Shown: positions 8,781-24,911, counted from the stretch's first letter. The stretch is DNA of 64,000 nt from Thermohalobacter berrensis (GCF_003609645.1 NZ_MCIB01000006.1:1-64000), one strand, 5' to 3'. Notes: generated from the letters alone by a model not told the origin. Made by a program: numbers and translations.

Positions 8781-9752
<972 letters not shown>

Positions 9753-15000: not shown

Positions 15001-15079
15001 ATTTTAAATAGTTTTTATAAATCAATTTGTTCTAGAAGTAATCCATTAGTAAATTCCATAACTATCAGATTATTACAAA

Positions 15080-15117
15080 GTCTTGCTAACGTATTACGCA
15101 AGGCTTTTTTTATTTTT
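15080..15117 (+). terminator. Intrinsic terminator downstream of rlmD
   Basis: GTCTTGC (15080-15086) pairs with GCAAGGC (15098-15104), followed by TTTTTTTATTTTT. Confidence 0.8.
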
Positions 15118-15446
15118 CAGGGTTGTTTTTACCACTCTAACACCGCTAGGGAATGAAGGTTGATGAACTTCCACCTTTCCTAAAATAAAACTGACTATTT
15201 ATTAAGAGTAGTATCTTAAAGGGTACTTATAAGACCGATTATGTAAAGAGAGTAGAAACACCTAAGACCGAAATTCTTCCTAGGGTCTTCTTCAGATTCT
15301 ATCTCAACATGGATACTCTGGCTTTGGCTAGGGATTCCTACTACTAATCCCATATTGGACTTTAACTGTCAAGTTATCGCCCATTCTAGTTGCATTTTAA
15401 AAATTTTGTCATTATACAAAGATGACGAAATTACCATTTCTTTAAG
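15118..15446. other. ORF-free stretch with several hairpins
   Basis: I see no supported gene here, yet it is less AT-rich than other gaps. Visible pairings include GGGATT (15330-15335) with AATCCC (15346-15351), GAAG/CTTC around 15157-15171, and on the minus strand AAGACC...GGTCTT across 15264-15290. Minus-strand TATAAT lies at 15411-15416. It could encode a small RNA or be the end of a lost mobile element such as an IS200/IS605 type; neither can be shown. Confidence 0.35.
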
Positions 15447-15476
15447 TTGAAATATTCCTAAAATTCATAATACAAT
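15447..15476 (+). promoter_or_regulatory. Candidate promoter of the PTS locus
   Basis: TTGAAA (15447-15452), an 18-bp spacer and TACAAT (15471-15476) lie 37 nt before the ATG of the PPi-type phosphofructokinase gene, which has AAAGGAGTG as its ribosome binding site. Confidence 0.5.
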
Positions 15477-15513
15477 AAATTCATAAGATCCAAAAAGGAG
15501 TGATTGTACAATT

Positions 15514-16733
15514 ATGAGGAACAATTTACTTATAGCCCAATCAGGAGGGCCAACCTCTGCAATTAATGCAACACTATCTGGAATATTAAAACTAGCAAGT
15601 ATTAGTGATAAAGTAGATAATATATACGGTGCAAAAAACGGTATAGAAGGTGTTCTCAAGGAAAAGTTTATAGACCTAAATGATTTAACAAAGGATGTAA
15701 ATAATCTTAATAAACTATCACTTACACCAGGAGCAGCCCTTGGATCTTGTAGATATAAACTAAAGGATATTAATAATAGCCATGAAGAATGTAAAAAAAT
15801 TATAGATATATTTACCAAATACAATATTTCATACTTTATATACATTGGTGGAAACGATTCAATGGACACAGTTATGAAGTTATCTCTGTATTGCAAGAAA
15901 AACAACATAGATACTATAAAAATAATAGGAGCTCCTAAAACAATAGACAACGACCTAGAAGAAATAGATCATACCCCTGGATTTGGATCAGCTGCAAAAT
16001 ATATTGCAACTACATTTGCTGAACTTGAAAGAGATATTTCGGTATATGAATTAAATAGTGTAACAATAGTTGAGGTAATGGGTAGAAATGCAGGCTGGTT
16101 AACAGCTGCATCAGCACTTTCAAGAATTAACGGAAATAGTGGACCAAGTTTGATTTATTTATGTGAAAATGTATTTGATGAAAATAAATTTGTAGAAGAT
16201 ATTAAAGAAAAACTAAAGACAAAAAAAATATAATAATTGCAATAAGTGAAGGATTAAAAACTAAAGATGGAAATTACTTATCATTTAAAAATAAAACTAA
16301 TAAAATAACTGACGTATTTGGACATGCATATATTTCAGGTGCTGGAAAATATTTAGAACAATTAGTAGAAAAAGAAATAGGTTGTAAAGTAAGGTCAATA
16401 GAACTAAACCTTATGCAAAGATGTTCCATGCATATTGCAAGTGCAACGGATATTAGAGAATCTTCAATGCTTGGAATGAAGGCCATTCAATTGGCATTGG
16501 AAGGAAATACCGGTCAAATGGCATCTCTAAAAAGAGTGAAAGCTAATGATTACAAAATAGAGTATACATCAGTTCCCATAGAAAAAGTAGCAAACAGGGA
16601 AAGAAAAATTCCAAAAGAGTGGATAACTCGAAATTATATTAAGGATGAATTATTTAATTATCTTTTACCCCTTATTCAAGGAGAAGTAGATATTAATTAT
16701 TATAAAGGTATACCAAGTCAATTTATATTTTAA
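15514..16733 (+). pseudogene. PPi-type 6-phosphofructokinase, interrupted by a -1 frameshift
   Basis: Two reading frames together make a phosphofructokinase of about 406 aa. The first (15514-16233) carries LIAQSGGPTSAINA, YIGGNDSMDT, GAPKTIDNDLEEIDHTPGFGSA and VEVMGRNAGW; GGNDS and PKTIDND are the pattern of pyrophosphate-dependent enzymes, unlike pfkA at 8.8 kb. The frame stops after an A8 run (16221-16228). The family sequence continues one frame back (IIIAISEGLKTKDG, then LMQRCSMHIASATD) to 16733. One extra A would restore a full gene. It could be a true pseudogene, a slippage-expressed gene or a sequencing error. It heads the PTS locus and could supply glycolytic flux from the imported sugar. 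Confidence 0.85.
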
Positions 16734-16850
16734 AACCTTGTCTGTTTTAAAATTGTCCATATTTAATAATGACAATAATGATTATTTTTAAGTTAAAATA
16801 ATGAGTTAAATGTAATATTATTAAAGAATAAGGAAGGGAGGGTAGGTATT

Positions 16851-18871
16851 GTGAAGTATTCAGCAAGATTAATTCAAATATTGTTGCTTCTACTTAGTTC
16901 AGACAAACCTATTTCCTCTGGAATTCTTGCGGAAAGTATACAAACGAGTAAACGGACTGTATTTAGAGAATTGGAAAAAGCAGATGAATACTTAAAAGAA
17001 TACAATCTTAGACTAGAAACAAAACCCAAAATAGGGATTAGTATTTTGGGGAGTGAATCTGATAAAAACAAATTACTAGCTGAATTAAATAAACTAGAGT
17101 ATAGTGATCCCCACGATAAAGAAGAACGCCATAATAGACTAATTTTAGAATTATTAAAACAAGAGGAACCACAAAAGACATATTATTATTCAAGTTTATT
17201 AAAAGTTAGCAATGGAACTATTAATAATGACTTAAATATTATAGAAAAGTGGTTTTTAGAGAACAATATAACTTTAGTTAGAAAGCCTGGACTTGGAATT
17301 TATCTAGATTATAAAGAAGAAGACTATAGAAAAGCATGTATAAGATACGTATATCAAGATACACATGACCCGATTAATAAACTAACCCATTTAATAGAAC
17401 CTAGCATTGTAAATAAGGTAATCGCATCAATAAAAAAATAAAAAACAATAGACTAAAAGATATTTCTGAAAGTTCTTATAAAGAACTGATAATATATATA
17501 TCTATAGTGACAAAGAGGATATTAATAGGAAAGAAAAATACGAAAGAAAAAAATATAAACTTAGATATCAAAAGTATGAAGGACTATGAGCTTGCAATAC
17601 AGTTAATTTCATTGCTTAGTGAACAGTTCTCAATAGAGTATAACACTACAGAAATAATAGATTTATATATATACATTAAAGGTTCTAAATCACAACATAT
17701 AAATGAAGATATATTTGACACAGACCATGACCTTAAATACATGATATATGAGATGATTAACCAATATGACAGTACTATTGCGTATCAACTTAAACAAGAC
17801 AAAGATTTTATAAAAGGACTAATAGCTCATTTAAAACCTACAATTGTACGTTTGAAACATGGGATTGAAATTCAAAATAGATTTTTGAAAGAGATAAAAA
17901 GCATGTATCCTAAGATATACGAAAAAGCTCAAAAAGTTGCAAAGGTAATAGAAGATAGGTTTAACTTTAAAGTTCCTGAGCAAGAGATAGGTTTTCTTGC
18001 TATACACTTTGGAGGAGCTGAGGTGAAGCTAAAAAGAGATTTAAGATTTACTAGGAAAGTAGATGTAGGGGTTATTTGCTCTAGTGGAATAGGGATATCT
18101 ACTTTATTATCTTCAAGAATATCTCATATTTTCCACGAAAAAGTAAGGGTGGAAACTCTTTCAACTAGTGATTTATCATCTGAGAAAATGCAAGGTATTG
18201 AAATATTAGTATCTACCTTTGATTTGAATAACTCTAAATACAAATATATTAAAGTAAATCCAATGCTTAGAGAAGAAGATGTTTTGTTAATTGCAAAAAA
18301 AATAGAAGAAGTATCCCAAAACAATAAGTTAGACATAGATGCTGACAAACCAGATATACTTAATAAGATAGATGAAATAACTTTAATAAGCAAGGAAATA
18401 AGCTCTATTCTCAAAAGTTTCAATTTATATACTGTAGATTCACATATTAAATTTGACAAAGTTATGAAGTTTGTAAGTTCAGTAATTGGAGAAGATGAAA
18501 AAAGCAAAAATTATATATACAATGATTTAAAGAAAAGGGAAGAATTATCTACTGAAGTTATACCAGAGTTTGAATTTGTACTACTACATGCAAAGACAAA
18601 AGGAGTAGATGAATCAAAATTTATATTAATAAAACCTCAGGCGTCAAGTTACTTTAAAGATGAATACTTCTCAAAATCAAAGGTAGTTGTAGTTATGTTA
18701 ATACCAAAGAATGACCCAAGAAGGGTACCTGCAATTTCAAGAATAAGTAATGCTTTATTTGAAGACGAATTTTTTTTAGAAGATGTAAAAAATGGAATAA
18801 AAGAATCTGTAAAAAGCTATATAGAAACAATATTAACAGAATATCTTGCAGAGCAGATAAAAAACCTATAG
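16851..18871 (+). pseudogene. PRD-containing PTS transcriptional regulator (MtlR/BglG-like), frameshifted
   Basis: Starting at GTG 16851 after GGGAGGG, the protein has two HTH segments (residues about 1-60, SSGILAESIQTSKRTVFREL; and about 85-150), two PRDs with phosphorylatable His (IAHLKP, FLAIHFGG), an EIIB-like domain with the Cys in VICSSGIGISTLL and a C-terminal EIIA-like domain with the His in LLHAKTKGVDES. The frame breaks at a stop after an A7 run (17432-17438) and resumes one frame back (NNRLKDISESSYKEL), then runs to 18871. One extra A would make it whole, about 673 aa. Such proteins activate PTS operons in response to EIIB/HPr phosphorylation, fitting the EIIA and EIICB genes downstream. 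Confidence 0.85.
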
Positions 18872-18892
18872 ACATAAAGGAGGGGATGTAAA

Positions 18893-19321
18893 ATGCTAAA
18901 AAAAATGTTAGAAAACAACATAAATGTGGTAAAAGAGGTATCAAATTGGGAAGAAGCTATTAAAATAGCAGCTATTCCTCTAAAAGAAGGTGGATTTATA
19001 AAAGAAGAATACATTGATGCTATGATAGAAAATATAGTTAAAAATGGTCCATATGTAGTTATTATGCCAGGACTTGCTATACCACACTCAAGACCTGAAG
19101 ATGGGGTATTAAAAACAGGAATATCACTTTTAAAGTTACATCAAAGTGTAAAATTTCCTGAAGGTAAAGATGTAGAGTTACTTATTGTACTAGCGGCAAA
19201 CGATTCCCACATGCATTTACAGCTAATATCTGAGTTAACTAATTTACTTATGGAAGATGATGTAATGGAAAAACTATCTTGTGCAAAATCAAAAGAAGAG
19301 GTATTAAGATGCATATGCTAG
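18893..19321 (+). CDS. PTS EIIA component (Fru/Mtl/Asc superfamily)
   Basis: A 142-aa cytoplasmic EIIA. The phosphorylated His is in GLAIPHSRPEDGV (around residue 66), a context closer to ascorbate/galactitol-type EIIA than to the mannitol EIIA of E. coli. The C-terminal part holds LIVLAANDSHMHLQLISELTNLL. AAAGGAGGGG precedes the ATG. It provides the IIA function missing from the EIICB encoded 0.75 kb downstream and overlaps the next gene by 13 nt. Confidence 0.9.
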   Translation: MLKKMLENNINVVKEVSNWEEAIKIAAIPLKEGGFIKEEYIDAMIENIVKNGPYVVIMPGLAIPHSRPEDGVLKTGISLLKLHQSVKFPEGKDVELLIVLAANDSHMHLQLISELTNLLMEDDVMEKLSCAKSKEEVLRCIC

Positions 19322-20076
19322 ATAAAATAAAATCATATAAATTTTTAGTTAACTCACTTGAAGTAAATGCAATTTATTATGAAAAAGATATAGAAAATAT
19401 ATTTATACCTTTACTTAAAAAATTAACAGATATGAAAAAAAATAAATCTAAGAGACTTTTAGTTTATTTAGCAGCACCACCTGGAGTTGGTAAAAGTACA
19501 ATATCTTCATTTTTAGAATATCTTTCAAAAGAAAGTGAAGAAGTTGAAGAGATCCAAGCAATTGGACTTGATGGGTTTCACTATCATCAAGAATACATTA
19601 AAAACAATAAAGCAGTAGTAAATGGAGTAGAAGTGCCTATGGTAGAAGTTAAAGGATGTCCAGAGACATTTGATTTAGATAAATTAAAGTCAAAAATAAA
19701 AGCTTTAAGAAATGGAAACGTTAAGTGGCCAATATATGATAGAAGCTTACATGATGTAGTGGAAGATCAAATACTAGTTACTAAAGATATTGTGTTAATT
19801 GAAGGCAATTGGCTTTTATTAAATGAAGATGGATGGAGGGATTTGAAAGACTACTGTGATTATAGTATTTTCATAAAAGCAGATGAATTTATGGTGAAGG
19901 ATAGGTTGATAAATAGAAAAATAAAAGGTGGATCATCAAAAGAGGATGCAACTAAGTTTTATGAAAAAAGCGATAGTAAAAATGTAAAAAGGGTACTAAA
20001 TAATAGTCTAGATGCTGATTTAGAGCTAGAATTATTAAACAATGGAAAATATATAATAAGGGGGCAATTTAATTGA
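19309..20076 (+). CDS. P-loop kinase of the uridine kinase/phosphoribulokinase superfamily
   Basis: A cytoplasmic kinase of about 255 aa. The Walker A is AAPPGVGKSTIS (residues about 55), followed by GLDGFHYHQEY and YDRSLHDVVEDQI (a Walker B-like YDRS segment) and LIEGNWLLL, as in the nucleoside/nucleotide kinase family that includes fructose-associated FrcK-type proteins. A TTG at 19279 is open, but AGAGG lies 8 nt before ATG 19309. It overlaps the EIIA gene and the EIICB gene, so it is translationally coupled to transport. The likely substrate is the imported sugar or its phosphate; that is inference from context. Confidence 0.82.
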   Translation: MHMLDKIKSYKFLVNSLEVNAIYYEKDIENIFIPLLKKLTDMKKNKSKRLLVYLAAPPGVGKSTISSFLEYLSKESEEVEEIQAIGLDGFHYHQEYIKNNKAVVNGVEVPMVEVKGCPETFDLDKLKSKIKALRNGNVKWPIYDRSLHDVVEDQILVTKDIVLIEGNWLLLNEDGWRDLKDYCDYSIFIKADEFMVKDRLINRKIKGGSSKEDATKFYEKSDSKNVKRVLNNSLDADLELELLNNGKYIIRGQFN

Positions 20077-21488
20077 AAAAGAAAAACATGAGATCAAAAG
20101 TTCAAGCTTTCGGAGGATTTTTAACAGGAATGGTTATTCCAAATATGGGTGCATTTATTGCATGGGGATTTATAACAGCACTATTCATACCAACAGGATG
20201 GGTTCCTAATGAGTACTTTAGTAAGTTAGTCGGACCTATGATAAATTACTTACTTCCACTGTTACTTGCATATACAGGTGGTAAACTTGTAGCAGGACAA
20301 AGAGGTGGAGTAGCAGGAGCTATTGGTACATTTGGATTAATAGTAGGCGCAGAGATACCAATGTTTCTAGGGGCTATGATTATGGGGCCATTTAGTGCAT
20401 ATATAGTAAAGAAATTTGATGAAATGATTGAAGATAGAATACCAACTGGATTTGAAATGGTTATAAACAACTTTTCACTAGGTATAATTGGATTATTACT
20501 TTGTCTGTTCTCTTATTCATTAATAGGTCCAGTAATACTTCAAGCAAATAAAGCAGTAACTGTAGCTATAGAAGGATTAGTAAAAACAGGATTCTTACCA
20601 CTTTTATCAGTTATTAACGAACCAGCAAAGGTATTATTCTTAAATAACGTAATTGACCAAGGTATTTATTATCCATTAGGAATGCAAAATACTTTAGAAG
20701 CTGGGAAATCGATTTACTTCATGGTTGCTTCTAACCCAGGACCAGGTTTAGGTTTATTACTTGCATATTCTTTATTTGGAAAAGGAACATCTAAGAAAAC
20801 TGCTCCAGGAGCAATAATAATACACTTTTTAGGTGGTATACATGAAATGTACTTCCCTTATGTATTAATGAAGCCAATACTAATAATAAGTATGATACTT
20901 GGTGGAGCTTCTGGTATATTAACATTTAGTCTATTCAATGTAGGTTTAGTTGCAGGACCAAGCCCAGGATCAATATTTGCATATTTAGCATTAACACCAA
21001 AAGGAAACTTCATAGGAGTTATAGCTGGGGTATTAGTAGCTACAGCAGTGAGTTTCTCAATAACATCATTAATATTAAAATCATCTAAACAAACAGAAGA
21101 AGAGTTTGAAGAATCAGTTAAAAAGTCAAAAGAAATGAAGCAAGAAGGAAAAAAATTATTAAACCCAGCGTTAGTACAAAAAGAAGTTAGTAATTCTCCA
21201 ATAAATTTTGTAGCATTTGCTTGTGATGCAGGGCTTGGAAGTAGTGCAATGGGGGCTAGTGCATTTAGAAAAAGAGTAGAAAAAGAAGGTCTTTCAATAA
21301 CAGTTAAAAACTTTGCTATTGAAAAAGTACCACAAGAAGTCGATGTAATAGTAACTCATAAAAGCTTGTTAGATAGAGCAAAACTTGCTTGGCCAAACAA
21401 GAGAATAGTTACTATAGAAAACTTTATGAAAGATAGCAATATAGAACAATTATTAGAAGAATTATTAGCACAAAAGCAAAATGCTTAA
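20073..21488 (+). CDS. mtlA: PTS EIICB, mannitol family (MtlA-like)
   Basis: A 471-aa membrane permease of the mannitol PTS family. The IIC domain (about 1-345) has multiple hydrophobic segments, with MVIPNMGAFIAWGFITALF, GAEIPMFLGAM and the GGIHEMYFPYVLMKP loop conserved. The IIB domain (about 375-471) has the phosphorylated Cys in FACDAGLGSSAMGA. There is no fused IIA; the separate IIA gene lies upstream. The start appears to be TTG 20073, overlapping the previous stop, with GGGGG at 20060-20064. Family assignment is strong, but without mtlD in the locus the true substrate may not be mannitol. Confidence 0.92.
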   Translation: MKKKNMRSKVQAFGGFLTGMVIPNMGAFIAWGFITALFIPTGWVPNEYFSKLVGPMINYLLPLLLAYTGGKLVAGQRGGVAGAIGTFGLIVGAEIPMFLGAMIMGPFSAYIVKKFDEMIEDRIPTGFEMVINNFSLGIIGLLLCLFSYSLIGPVILQANKAVTVAIEGLVKTGFLPLLSVINEPAKVLFLNNVIDQGIYYPLGMQNTLEAGKSIYFMVASNPGPGLGLLLAYSLFGKGTSKKTAPGAIIIHFLGGIHEMYFPYVLMKPILIISMILGGASGILTFSLFNVGLVAGPSPGSIFAYLALTPKGNFIGVIAGVLVATAVSFSITSLILKSSKQTEEEFEESVKKSKEMKQEGKKLLNPALVQKEVSNSPINFVAFACDAGLGSSAMGASAFRKRVEKEGLSITVKNFAIEKVPQEVDVIVTHKSLLDRAKLAWPNKRIVTIENFMKDSNIEQLLEELLAQKQNA

Positions 21489-21505
21489 AAGGGAGATGTT
21501 GACTA

Positions 21506-22762
21506 ATGAAAACTAGGGCAGCAGTTTTAGCAGGTAAAAACAATATATATATAAGAGAGTTTGAATTACCAGAAATAAATGAAGATGAACTACTTGTAAA
21601 GATAGTATCAAATAGTATTTGTTTATCAACATATAAAGCCTTAATTAGGGGAGAAGAACATAAAAGAGTTCCAGAAAATGTTTCAAAACATCCTGCAATT
21701 ACAGGACATGAATTTGCTGGAATTATAGAAAAAGTAGGAAGTAATTTAAAAGACAAATTTAAAGAAGGTCAAAGATTTGTACTTCAACCAGCTATGGGAC
21801 TTGAATCAGGTTATTCAGCAGGATATAGCTACGAGTATTTTGGCGGAAATGCAACATATTGTATTATTCCCAAAATAGCAATTGACTTAGGTTGTGTACT
21901 TCCTCTTAATGGAACATACTTTGCAAATGCATCATTGTCAGAACCTATGTCCTGTATAATAGGAGCATTCCACGCAAGTTATCATACAAAGCCATATGTT
22001 TATAAACACGATATGGGAATAAAAGAAGGTGGAAAATTAGCACTTTTAGGTTGTGCTGGTCCTATGGGATTAGGTGCTATAGAATATGCTATTAATGGAC
22101 CTGTAAAACCAAAATTAGTTGTAGTTGTAGATATAGATGAAGAAAGACTAAATAGAGCAGCTAGCTTAATAACAGTTGAAGGAGCAAAGGAAAAAGGGGT
22201 TGAATTAATATATTTAAATAATAAGGATATAGATGCAGTAAGTGAGTTAAGAAAATTATCAGGTGGGAAGGGATATGACGATGTATTTGTATTTGCACCT
22301 GTTAAGCAATTAATAGAAGTCGCTGATGATATATTAGGTAATGATGGTTGCTTAAACTTCTTTGCTGGCCCAACAGATAATAACTTTAAGGTGCCATTTA
22401 ACTTCTACAATGTTCACTATGAGGGAACTCATATAGTTGGAACATCAGGTGGATCTACTGGAGATATGTTAGAGTCTATAGAATTATCTGAAGAGGGATT
22501 AATAAATCCATCATTTATGGTAACACATATAGGGGGATTAAATGCAGTTCCAGAAACTATAAGAAACTTACCTAATATTCCAGGTGGAAAAAAACTAATT
22601 TATCCTCATATAGAAATGGAATTAACAGCTATTAAGGATTTTGAAAAATTAGGTGAAAATGACGAGTTATTTAGGGAGTTAGCAAAAATATGTAAGAAAA
22701 ACAACAATGTTTGGTGCGAAGAAGCAGAAAAGTTTTTATTAGAATTCTTTGAAAATAAATAA
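21506..22762 (+). CDS. Zinc-type dehydrogenase, L-sorbose-1-phosphate reductase-like
   Basis: A 418-aa medium-chain zinc-type dehydrogenase. MKTRAAVLAG, ITGHEFAGII, LSEPMSCIIGAFHASYH, LLGCAGPMGLGAIEYA (nucleotide-binding loop), YDDVFVFAP and IPGGKKLIYPH match SorE-type sorbose-1-phosphate reductases, which interconvert L-sorbose 1-phosphate and D-glucitol 6-phosphate. In this locus it would reduce or oxidise the sugar phosphate made by the PTS. It lies 17 nt after the EIICB gene and ends before a strong terminator. The SorE-like family call comes from memory of the motif order; exact substrate is inference. Confidence 0.83.
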   Translation: MKTRAAVLAGKNNIYIREFELPEINEDELLVKIVSNSICLSTYKALIRGEEHKRVPENVSKHPAITGHEFAGIIEKVGSNLKDKFKEGQRFVLQPAMGLESGYSAGYSYEYFGGNATYCIIPKIAIDLGCVLPLNGTYFANASLSEPMSCIIGAFHASYHTKPYVYKHDMGIKEGGKLALLGCAGPMGLGAIEYAINGPVKPKLVVVVDIDEERLNRAASLITVEGAKEKGVELIYLNNKDIDAVSELRKLSGGKGYDDVFVFAPVKQLIEVADDILGNDGCLNFFAGPTDNNFKVPFNFYNVHYEGTHIVGTSGGSTGDMLESIELSEEGLINPSFMVTHIGGLNAVPETIRNLPNIPGGKKLIYPHIEMELTAIKDFEKLGENDELFRELAKICKKNNNVWCEEAEKFLLEFFENK

Positions 22763-22835: not shown

Positions 22836-22869
22836 GGTGGGTATTCTAATAGAATACCTGCCTTTTTTT
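22836..22869 (+). terminator. Terminator closing the PTS locus
   Basis: GGTGGGTATTCT (22836-22847) and AGAATACCTGCC (22851-22862) form a stem with two wobble pairs, followed by TTTTTTTA. Confidence 0.88.
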
Positions 22870-22872
22870 ATT

Positions 22873-22914
22873 AGGACACAAAGGGACGGTTCTAGGACAC
22901 AAAGGGACGGTTCT
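22873..22914. repeat. Tandem copy of dispersed repeat R1
   Basis: The 21-bp unit AGGACACAAAGGGACGGTTCT occurs twice, back to back (22873-22893, 22894-22914). A related, inverted copy lies at 24961-24983. The unit resembles short GGACACAAAGGGAC repeats I know from other Clostridia genomes. Confidence 0.85.
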
Positions 22915-23029
22915 AGTGTGTTACTTTAAGTTGTTATCACCTTTAACCATCACAAGGGTAATAAGGAGACTTTTTGATTATCACAAATTAAAAGGAATGT
23001 AATTATTATATGTAGAGGAGTTAATTAAA

Positions 23030-23230
23030 ATGAAAAAGAGTGAAAAAATAAAGAAGTTGTTGATACTATAGATAATCAAAATAGTAACGTAAATTTTTAT
23101 TATATAGCTAATAGATTTCCTTATGGTATAATCATAGAAAGAAGCTATTGAATAAGTAGTAGTGGAAGAAGCTATTCTAAACGATGATGAATATACCATT
23201 TTAATAAAAAAGGATGATAAAATAAAATGA
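23030..23230 (+). pseudogene. Decayed small gene ahead of the SWIM gene
   Basis: ATG 23030 follows GAGGAG. The frame stops early, but one missing A in an A6 run (23043-23048) would let it read KEVVDTIDNQNSNVNFYYI and on to FPYGIIIERSY. A second break near 23145 is followed by EEAILNDDEYTILIKKDD, which ends in an ATGA overlap with the next gene. The two breaks flank a repeated AAGAAGCTATT. I do not recognise the family. Confidence 0.5.
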
Positions 23231-24911
23231 ATATAAATAATTTTGAGAAATACGTTAATGAAATAATTTTAGATAGGGGATATAATTACTATACTTATGG
23301 AAATGTACTAGAAAAGTATGAGAAGGAAAATAATGAATATATTTTTATAGTTGCAGGAAGTCAAATTTATGAAGTAATAGTTCAGTTGGATGAAAATGGT
23401 GAAATTCTTTCTTCATATTGTAATTGTCCGTATGATTTTGGACCTATATGTAAGCATCAAGTAGCAGCTTATTTTGAAATACGCAACCATTTAAAAAGCC
23501 AACCAAACAATGAAAAAGTAAAAGATGAGGTAATGAAACAGCCAGAAATAGAAGATGTACTAAATAGTCTTTCTAAAGAAGAGTTAATAAATATTATTTT
23601 AGATATAGTTAAAAGGGATGAAACTATAAAAGATAATATTGTTTTTAGATATTCAGATAATTCTAAATTAAACCTGCCTGGTCAATGTAAAAAAATAATT
23701 AATTCAATTGTTAGAAAATATACAAGGAATGAAGGTTTTATACTATATAGAGAAGCTTATGGATTTGCAAGTGAAATGAAAGATTTACTAGAACAGATTG
23801 GAGAAATATACCAAGCTAATGATAATCCTGTATCAATATTAGATGCTACTCTTATAGTGTTGGAAGAGTCTATAAAAGCCCTTGGTTATGCAGATGATTC
23901 AGATGGATATATAGGTAGCCTAATATCAGAGATATTTGAGTATATACAAGAAATTGCATATGATTCAAAAAAATTAGATACAAATTTAAGAAGAAAAATG
24001 TTTAAAAAGATATTAAACCAAGCTGATAAAGAAATTTTTCATGATTGGGATGATTACTATATTGATATAATTAATATATGTTCAGAGTTTGCAGATATTG
24101 AAGAGTTAAGAAATGATTTAAGAAGAAAAATAGAATATTTTGTTAATGAAAATATTAATGATAGATATTCCGAATATAGTATAGAAAGAATGCTTTTAAT
24201 ATTGTATAACATAATAAGGGAATATGGACCTAAAGAAGAAGCAGAGAAATTTATAAAGAAAAACATGAAATTTACATCATTTAGAGAGTTAGTTATAAAT
24301 AAGTTTATGAAAGAAAAGGACTATTCAAAAGTTATAGAATTGGCGTTAGAAGGAGAAAGAAAGGATAAAAAATATAAAGGGTTAGTGGTAAAGTGGAAAA
24401 AATAAGATATAAGGCTTATAAAGAACTTTCACTTAAAAAAGAACAAGAAAAGCTAGCAAAAGAACTATTATTTAGTGATAGTTTTGAGTATTATAGAGAA
24501 TTAAAAGAATTACACAAAGAGGATTGGGAAATTTTTTATACTAAACTAAAAGAAGAATTAAAAAGCCATAACAGTTGGTATTTTAGGGATAAATATCTAA
24601 AGGTTATAACTTTTGAAAGGGACTTACCTGAATTAATGGAATTTGTACGGGAAAATCCCAGATCTATAGAAGAATATGCAAATATGTTAGTTGATAAGTA
24701 TAAAAATGAGGTTATAGATATCTATAAAAAAAGTATAATGTTAGAAGCAAGCTCATCTTCAAAGAGAAGCCATTATAGACAAGTATGTAGAATGCTTGAA
24801 AAATTTAAAAAGATAGCAGGAAAGAAAAAGCAAGGAGAAATGATAAATGAATTAAGTATTAAATATAAAAGAAGACCAGCATTTTTAGATGAGTTAGAAA
24901 AAATTAAATAA
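23227..24911 (+). pseudogene. SWIM zinc-finger protein, frameshifted near residue 390
   Basis: The N-terminal part (23227-24405) carries a SWIM zinc finger, CNCPYDFGPICKHQVA (CxC...CxH, residues about 68-83), a domain thought to bind DNA or protein and often found with SNF2 helicases. The remainder is helical and charged. The frame stops right after an A6 run (24397-24402); the other frame continues with IRYKAYKELSLKKEQEKLA to 24911, and one extra A would give a single protein of about 561 aa. No SNF2 helicase gene is next to it. The upstream remnant overlaps its start codon. Confidence 0.8.

Follow-up and report, generated by a model that had tools for sequence, protein, structure and literature searches.

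A mannitol-type PTS operon without MtlD in Thermohalobacter berrensis and its kinship with the Escherichia coli cmt/ygg cluster

The genome of Thermohalobacter berrensis contains a PTS operon that lacks MtlD and probably serves a mannitol-like hexitol, which would enter glycolysis by way of a ketose-1-phosphate and a 1,6-bisphosphate. We put the probability of this reading, which is built on gene content and homology, at about 0.6. The operon is part of a stretch of 64,000 nucleotides (GCF_003609645.1 NZ_MCIB01000006.1:1-64000), referred to as the window. Its features, with the basis for each call, are the following:

15514..16733, + strand: PPi-type 6-phosphofructokinase (PRK14072 family) with one frame break; profile and motif matches
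16851..18871, + strand: PTS-controlled activator of the MtlR/LicR type with one frame break; domain matches and an orthologue in Clostridium sp. cel8
18893..19321, + strand: PTS EIIA of the CmtB/mannitol-fructose type; profile match and 44% identity to E. coli CmtB
19309..20076, + strand: P-loop sugar/polyol kinase of the YggC family (PRK09270.1-4); match to NF006745
20073..21488, + strand: EIICB of the MtlA family, CmtA clade; match to TIGR00851, GGIHE motif and phosphocysteine
21506..22762, + strand: zinc-dependent medium-chain dehydrogenase of the YggP/SorE family; identity to YggP and SorE, and tree
22836..22862, + strand: terminator-like hairpin with a 12-pair stem and a T-run, 3' of the operon

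All the genes named in the original prediction are present and run in one direction. EIIA, kinase, EIICB and dehydrogenase have intact reading frames and are almost contiguous. The kinase had been described as overlapping both of its neighbours. It does overlap EIIA by 13 nt, while the overlap of 4 nt with EIICB depends on a TTG start at 20073 and disappears if the ATG at 20088 is used. The EIICB passes the MtlA-type model TIGR00851 (499.3, cut-off 468.4) and has GGIHE at residue 254 and the phosphocysteine at residue 384. The weight of the hairpin is limited by the regional number of terminator-like sites, which is not above chance. The promoter region has no CcpA (cre) site (over the whole window their number does not exceed chance either), the matches of a promoter scan were also not above chance, and an Rfam search gave no match. 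Beyond the terminator there is a tandem 'ggacacaaagggacggttct' motif at 22870-22920. Upstream of the phosphofructokinase gene ≈490 bases (15020-15510) are free of genes; this block was considered as a repeat and rejected, being single copy in the genome.

The composition of the locus was at first thought to be unusual. This is true in comparison with mtlARFD operons. E. coli K-12, however, already has the set as cmtB-cmtA-yggP-yggF-fumE(yggD)-yggC, and it is also found in Clostridium sp. cel8. BLASTP identities between the window and E. coli proteins are 63% for EIICB/CmtA, 64% for dehydrogenase/YggP, 44% for EIIA/CmtB and 41% for kinase/YggC. The cel8 cluster (regulator-EIIA-kinase-EIICB-dehydrogenase) has the gene order of the window without the phosphofructokinase, so that the search for this order in Clostridia proposed earlier did recover it. 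Cel8 was the sole match when genome contigs were searched for the cluster, and among 249 genomes of the order no further YggC clusters were found. In Photobacterium, one replicon carries EIIA-EIICB-dehydrogenase-YggD-like-kinase together with a PHP-domain protein.

The window permease groups with CmtA in the EIICB tree (support 100). The YggC-linked dehydrogenases of the window, cel8, E. coli and Photobacterium form a single clade (100/100), which is nested in the MtlA-linked clade and separate from SorE. Since this one clade spans Clostridia and Gammaproteobacteria, kinase and dehydrogenase seem to have moved as a pair. The kinase scores 379.7 bits against NF006745 (cut-off 228). Judged by these three sequence relationships, the locus belongs with the E. 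coli cmt/ygg cluster, of which it is a Clostridial relative by common ancestry. At least 80% of the cmt/ygg cluster is held by 5338 of 5426 complete E. coli genomes, and this near-universal retention suggests that the cluster is under selection there. No function has been reported for it in the literature searched. YggC has been predicted to be a 'sugar/polyol kinase', a prediction given as work in progress (Gerdes et al., 2011; PMC3223725).

How MtlA-type permeases are accompanied was read from gene contexts in 398 genomes of the same phylum, 43 of which contain 48 MtlA-type EIICB genes. MtlD adjoins 34 of these genes and a YggP/SorE-type dehydrogenase 13 (in 12 loci), one is next to neither enzyme, and none is next to both. 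Many relatives of the window dehydrogenase in these genomes follow an MtlA-type PTS and a PRD activator. The permease next to neither enzyme belongs to the MtlA family (44%) and is accompanied by EIIA, a HAD phosphatase, a NanE-like epimerase, a ROK kinase and an RpiR-type regulator (L199, genome G355); this is likely an amino-sugar system with a mannitol-type permease. Other YggP-like dehydrogenases (56–58%) have no PTS beside them; they are divergent from an SDR, and after them come lipoate genes together with a pyruvate/acetoin-dehydrogenase-like E1 (L072, L075-L078, L080, L081 and L092-L094). Three more adjoin apparent genes for L-rhamnose isomerase, class II aldolase, an SDR and a sugar kinase (L067, L071 and L074).

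The absence of mtlD from the locus, noted in the original prediction, extends to the whole genome, where no PF08125 protein was found despite two MtlA-type dehydrogenase operons; conserved copies of the cluster do not always carry mtlD. PF08125 was also searched in 12 other genomes, namely 11 with dehydrogenase-type permease loci and G288, whose contig ends after a dehydrogenase and FruK before any permease (L079, left out of the counts). Five have no match and seven have matches in frames of ∼480 aa and more. Four of these matches were scanned: three exceed the cut-off for tagaturonate reductase and one is nearest to fructuronate reductase, below the cut-off. The best reading of these contexts is that the dehydrogenase would replace MtlD in such MtlA-type operons.

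The two types of operon also differ in their kinases. Six of the 12 dehydrogenase-type loci (L065, L066, L068, L069, L070 and L073) have FruK next to the dehydrogenase, whereas none of the 34 MtlD loci has it. With the YggC kinase of the window counted, the figures are 7/12 and 0/34 (Fisher p = 1.5e-5, for genomes that are not independent). Counted by family, FruK is found in 5/7 of the dehydrogenase type and 0/12 of the MtlD type (hypergeometric p ~0.002). The FruK genes scanned (six of seven including that of L079, with L073 left out) all exceed the TIGR03828 cut-off for 1-phosphofructokinase. The window operon has no 1-phosphofructokinase gene; one is found in the second copy in the same genome (L065; G000:C36:24000-42000), which sits downstream of glmS and contains an EIICB (470 aa), a PRD regulator, a longer second EIICB (630 aa), FruK and a YggP-like dehydrogenase (66%), with no MtlD. 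The literature searched does not name mtlA-mtlR-fruK-dehydrogenase operons. Against our reading, 5 of the 12 dehydrogenase-type loci have no adjoining kinase, and the genomes are not independent.

MtlD oxidizes mannitol-1-phosphate at C5 to fructose-6-phosphate, and FruK is not needed. SorE interconverts L-sorbose-1-phosphate and D-glucitol-6-phosphate and thus acts at the carbon beside CH2O-P. If an enzyme of this type acted on mannitol-1-phosphate the product would be fructose-1-phosphate, and FruK would be required. As a ketose-1-phosphate kinase is required only with a 1-phosphate product, the distribution of FruK is what C2 oxidation predicts. We therefore propose that the dehydrogenase is a hexitol-1-phosphate 2-dehydrogenase.

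The original prediction called this enzyme a SorE-like reductase. The relationship to SorE holds, at 42% identity to the Klebsiella enzyme, but in this operon the protein should run as a dehydrogenase. The reverse direction, in which a phosphorylated ketose (sorbose or fructose) imported by the PTS would be reduced to a hexitol phosphate, can appeal to that identity. It is very improbable, given that the locus is without the SorD-type SDR that SorE loci have and that its permease is of the MtlA type, a family paired with MtlD elsewhere.

The kinase has kept its P-loop and the DGFH, ETFD, YDR and EGNWLL motifs, and the nearest solved structures are 3c8u, a 'fructokinase', and pantothenate kinases. 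Taken in its simplest reading, the gene would encode a ketose-1-phosphate 6-kinase in the place of FruK. Its family is otherwise named after uridine kinase and pantothenate kinase, and YggC-like kinases (43–45%) are also found in cobalamin operons with cobQ, cobU, cobD and cobS-like neighbours (L104 and L106; genomes G329 and G087), which counts against our reading and could mean that the window kinase has an unrelated substrate (a nucleoside or a pantothenate-like compound) and is only passively co-located. We consider this quite improbable, because the gene overlaps EIIA and EIICB, the linkage is kept over two phyla with linked dehydrogenases of one clade, and the closest solved structure, 3c8u, is a fructokinase. 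It is possible that the kinases in the cobalamin operons represent an unrecognised step there. Another kinase of the YggC type, ∼60% identical to that of the window, is found by itself close to FruK and a mannose-type PTS (L109, genome G604).

In the pathway that we propose, EIIA and EIICB would import the hexitol as hexitol-1-phosphate, and the zinc dehydrogenase would oxidize the C2 hydroxyl beside the phosphorylated carbon to give a ketose-1-phosphate. With D-mannitol this would be fructose-1-phosphate instead of the fructose-6-phosphate made by MtlD. The YggC-type kinase would then phosphorylate C6 with ATP, which is FruK's role in the sister operon; from there aldolase would lead the 1,6-bisphosphate into glycolysis. 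The operon would be turned on by the PTS-controlled activator. In E. coli, YggF may also convert the 1,6-bisphosphate back to fructose-6-phosphate. Uptake of a hexitol or ketohexose followed by redox and a second phosphorylation had been suggested before; the hexitol version fits the split between MtlD and dehydrogenase, the FruK linkage and the one-clade YggC link over two phyla, and the ketohexose version is less likely.

Mannitol is the favoured substrate. It is a hexitol whose C2 and C5 oxidation both feed straight into glycolysis. One member of the window permease clade is paired with a true MtlD (403.7, cut-off 356; L167 in genome G235), so the clade probably carries mannitol; the partner of another member (G301) scores just below the MtlD cut-off. 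Mannitol leaves it unexplained that a dedicated kinase is kept although FruK exists, and uridine, not a hexitol, was the strongest inducer of the E. coli cmtA promoter in a screen of 198 compounds (PMC12412646). The same scheme could instead serve another polyol, such as D-arabitol via xylulose-1-phosphate and xylulose-1,5-bisphosphate, or a rarer hexitol via psicose-, tagatose- or sorbose-1-phosphate. This would account for a special kinase with FruK left unused and for the FruK-type copy in the same genome, as two operons for one substrate are redundant. It also sits well with tktA, which adjoins cmtB in E. coli, and with the bisphosphate-removing enzyme that accompanies the kinase there (YggF) and perhaps in Photobacterium (the PHP protein). 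We nevertheless regard another polyol as unlikely in view of the same-clade permease with a true MtlD, the lack of an epimerase or isomerase in all four YggC-type clusters, and the activity of YggF on fructose-1,6-bisphosphate, as given where PMC8719807 cites Brown (2009). This activity fits a pathway that passes through a bisphosphate.

The PPi-type phosphofructokinase had been counted as part of the pathway, and this has found no support. We rejected it as a core member of the operon, since the cel8 locus does without it and its contexts elsewhere are mostly unrelated to hexitol genes. In the relatives set of 60 genomes, 13 (own genome counted) have a gene of this type that exceeds the cut-off. 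Its neighbours in 10 other contexts are mostly V-ATPase, aldolase and others, and only in two (L084 and L150) is it loosely near mtl genes. The gene is probably a neighbour, at most accessory (fructose-1,6-bisphosphate to fructose-6-phosphate); a second, normal phosphofructokinase gene is intact at 8793-9752.

As predicted, phosphofructokinase and regulator are each out of frame by one break, both at A-runs. The phosphofructokinase frame breaks after 16233, with an A8 run near 16222-16230, and its second half lies in another frame (16239-16733). The halves match the same NCBIfam family, NF010675, with 324.8 bits (N-terminal) and 157.4 bits (cut-off 273), and the GGNDS and PKTIDND motifs are both found. 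The regulator, with the domain order HTH_11/Mga, two PRD, EIIB-like and EIIA-like, breaks after 17441 (∼17434-17446, flanked by two A-runs), while its orthologue in cel8 is unbroken (674 aa). The two halves diverge from cel8 by 40/35% at third, 26/24% at first and 14/14% at second codon positions, the same pattern as the intact genes of the locus. This selected divergence in both halves makes it likely that the break is a recent lesion or a sequence error. A possible third break near 24393, in a SWIM-domain gene (23227-24911), also lies between A-runs and hints at homopolymer errors in the assembly. Two single-base breaks within one locus could also be the mark of a decaying remnant that no longer works in this strain. 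That the operon is such a remnant seems improbable to us, with EIIA, kinase, EIICB and dehydrogenase unbroken, selected divergence and no other stops in both regulator halves, and an unrelated gene possibly broken at A-runs as well.

A broader proposal is more tentative, at somewhat below even odds: that there is a second bacterial PTS route for mannitol, in which SorE/YggP-type enzymes are mannitol-1-phosphate 2-dehydrogenases yielding fructose-1-phosphate and YggC-type P-loop enzymes constitute a novel class of ketose-1-phosphate kinases that takes the place of FruK. No PTS route from mannitol to fructose-1-phosphate was found in the literature searched. A paper on mannitol use in Defluviitalea abbreviates FRUK in its metabolism figure, and its text gives the MtlD-type reaction (PMC4818487). 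If the proposal is true, yggP and yggC, found in nearly all E. coli, would gain functions, and for genes kept in ∼98% of complete genomes these would be specific and cheaply testable. In the phylum sample about one MtlA-type operon in four (12/47 loci) relies on a dehydrogenase that is not MtlD, and such organisms would be overlooked by annotation pipelines in which mtlD is the sign of mannitol use.

The window operon shares the MtlA-type EIICB, EIIA and PRD activator with the classical mtlA-mtlR-mtlF-mtlD operon, but has a YggP/SorE-type dehydrogenase and a kinase instead of MtlD. With the Bacillota mtlA-mtlR-fruK-dehydrogenase operons it has the permease family, the dehydrogenase clade and an operon kinase in common, although theirs is a PfkB-type FruK and that of the window is of the YggC type. 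The Klebsiella sorbose operon sorCDFBAME resembles it in the SorE-family dehydrogenase, but its SorD SDR, mannose-type PTS and SorC regulator are not seen in the window. In the E. coli cmt/ygg cluster, also called the cryptic mannitol PTS, EIIA, EIICB, zinc dehydrogenase and YggC kinase are all homologous to those of the window. E. coli has in addition the FBPase YggF and a small regulator-like protein, YggD/FumE, neither of which is among the genes of the window or the cel8 cluster. The window, for its part, differs from E. coli in its gene order and in the PRD activator and PPi-type phosphofructokinase that lie upstream.
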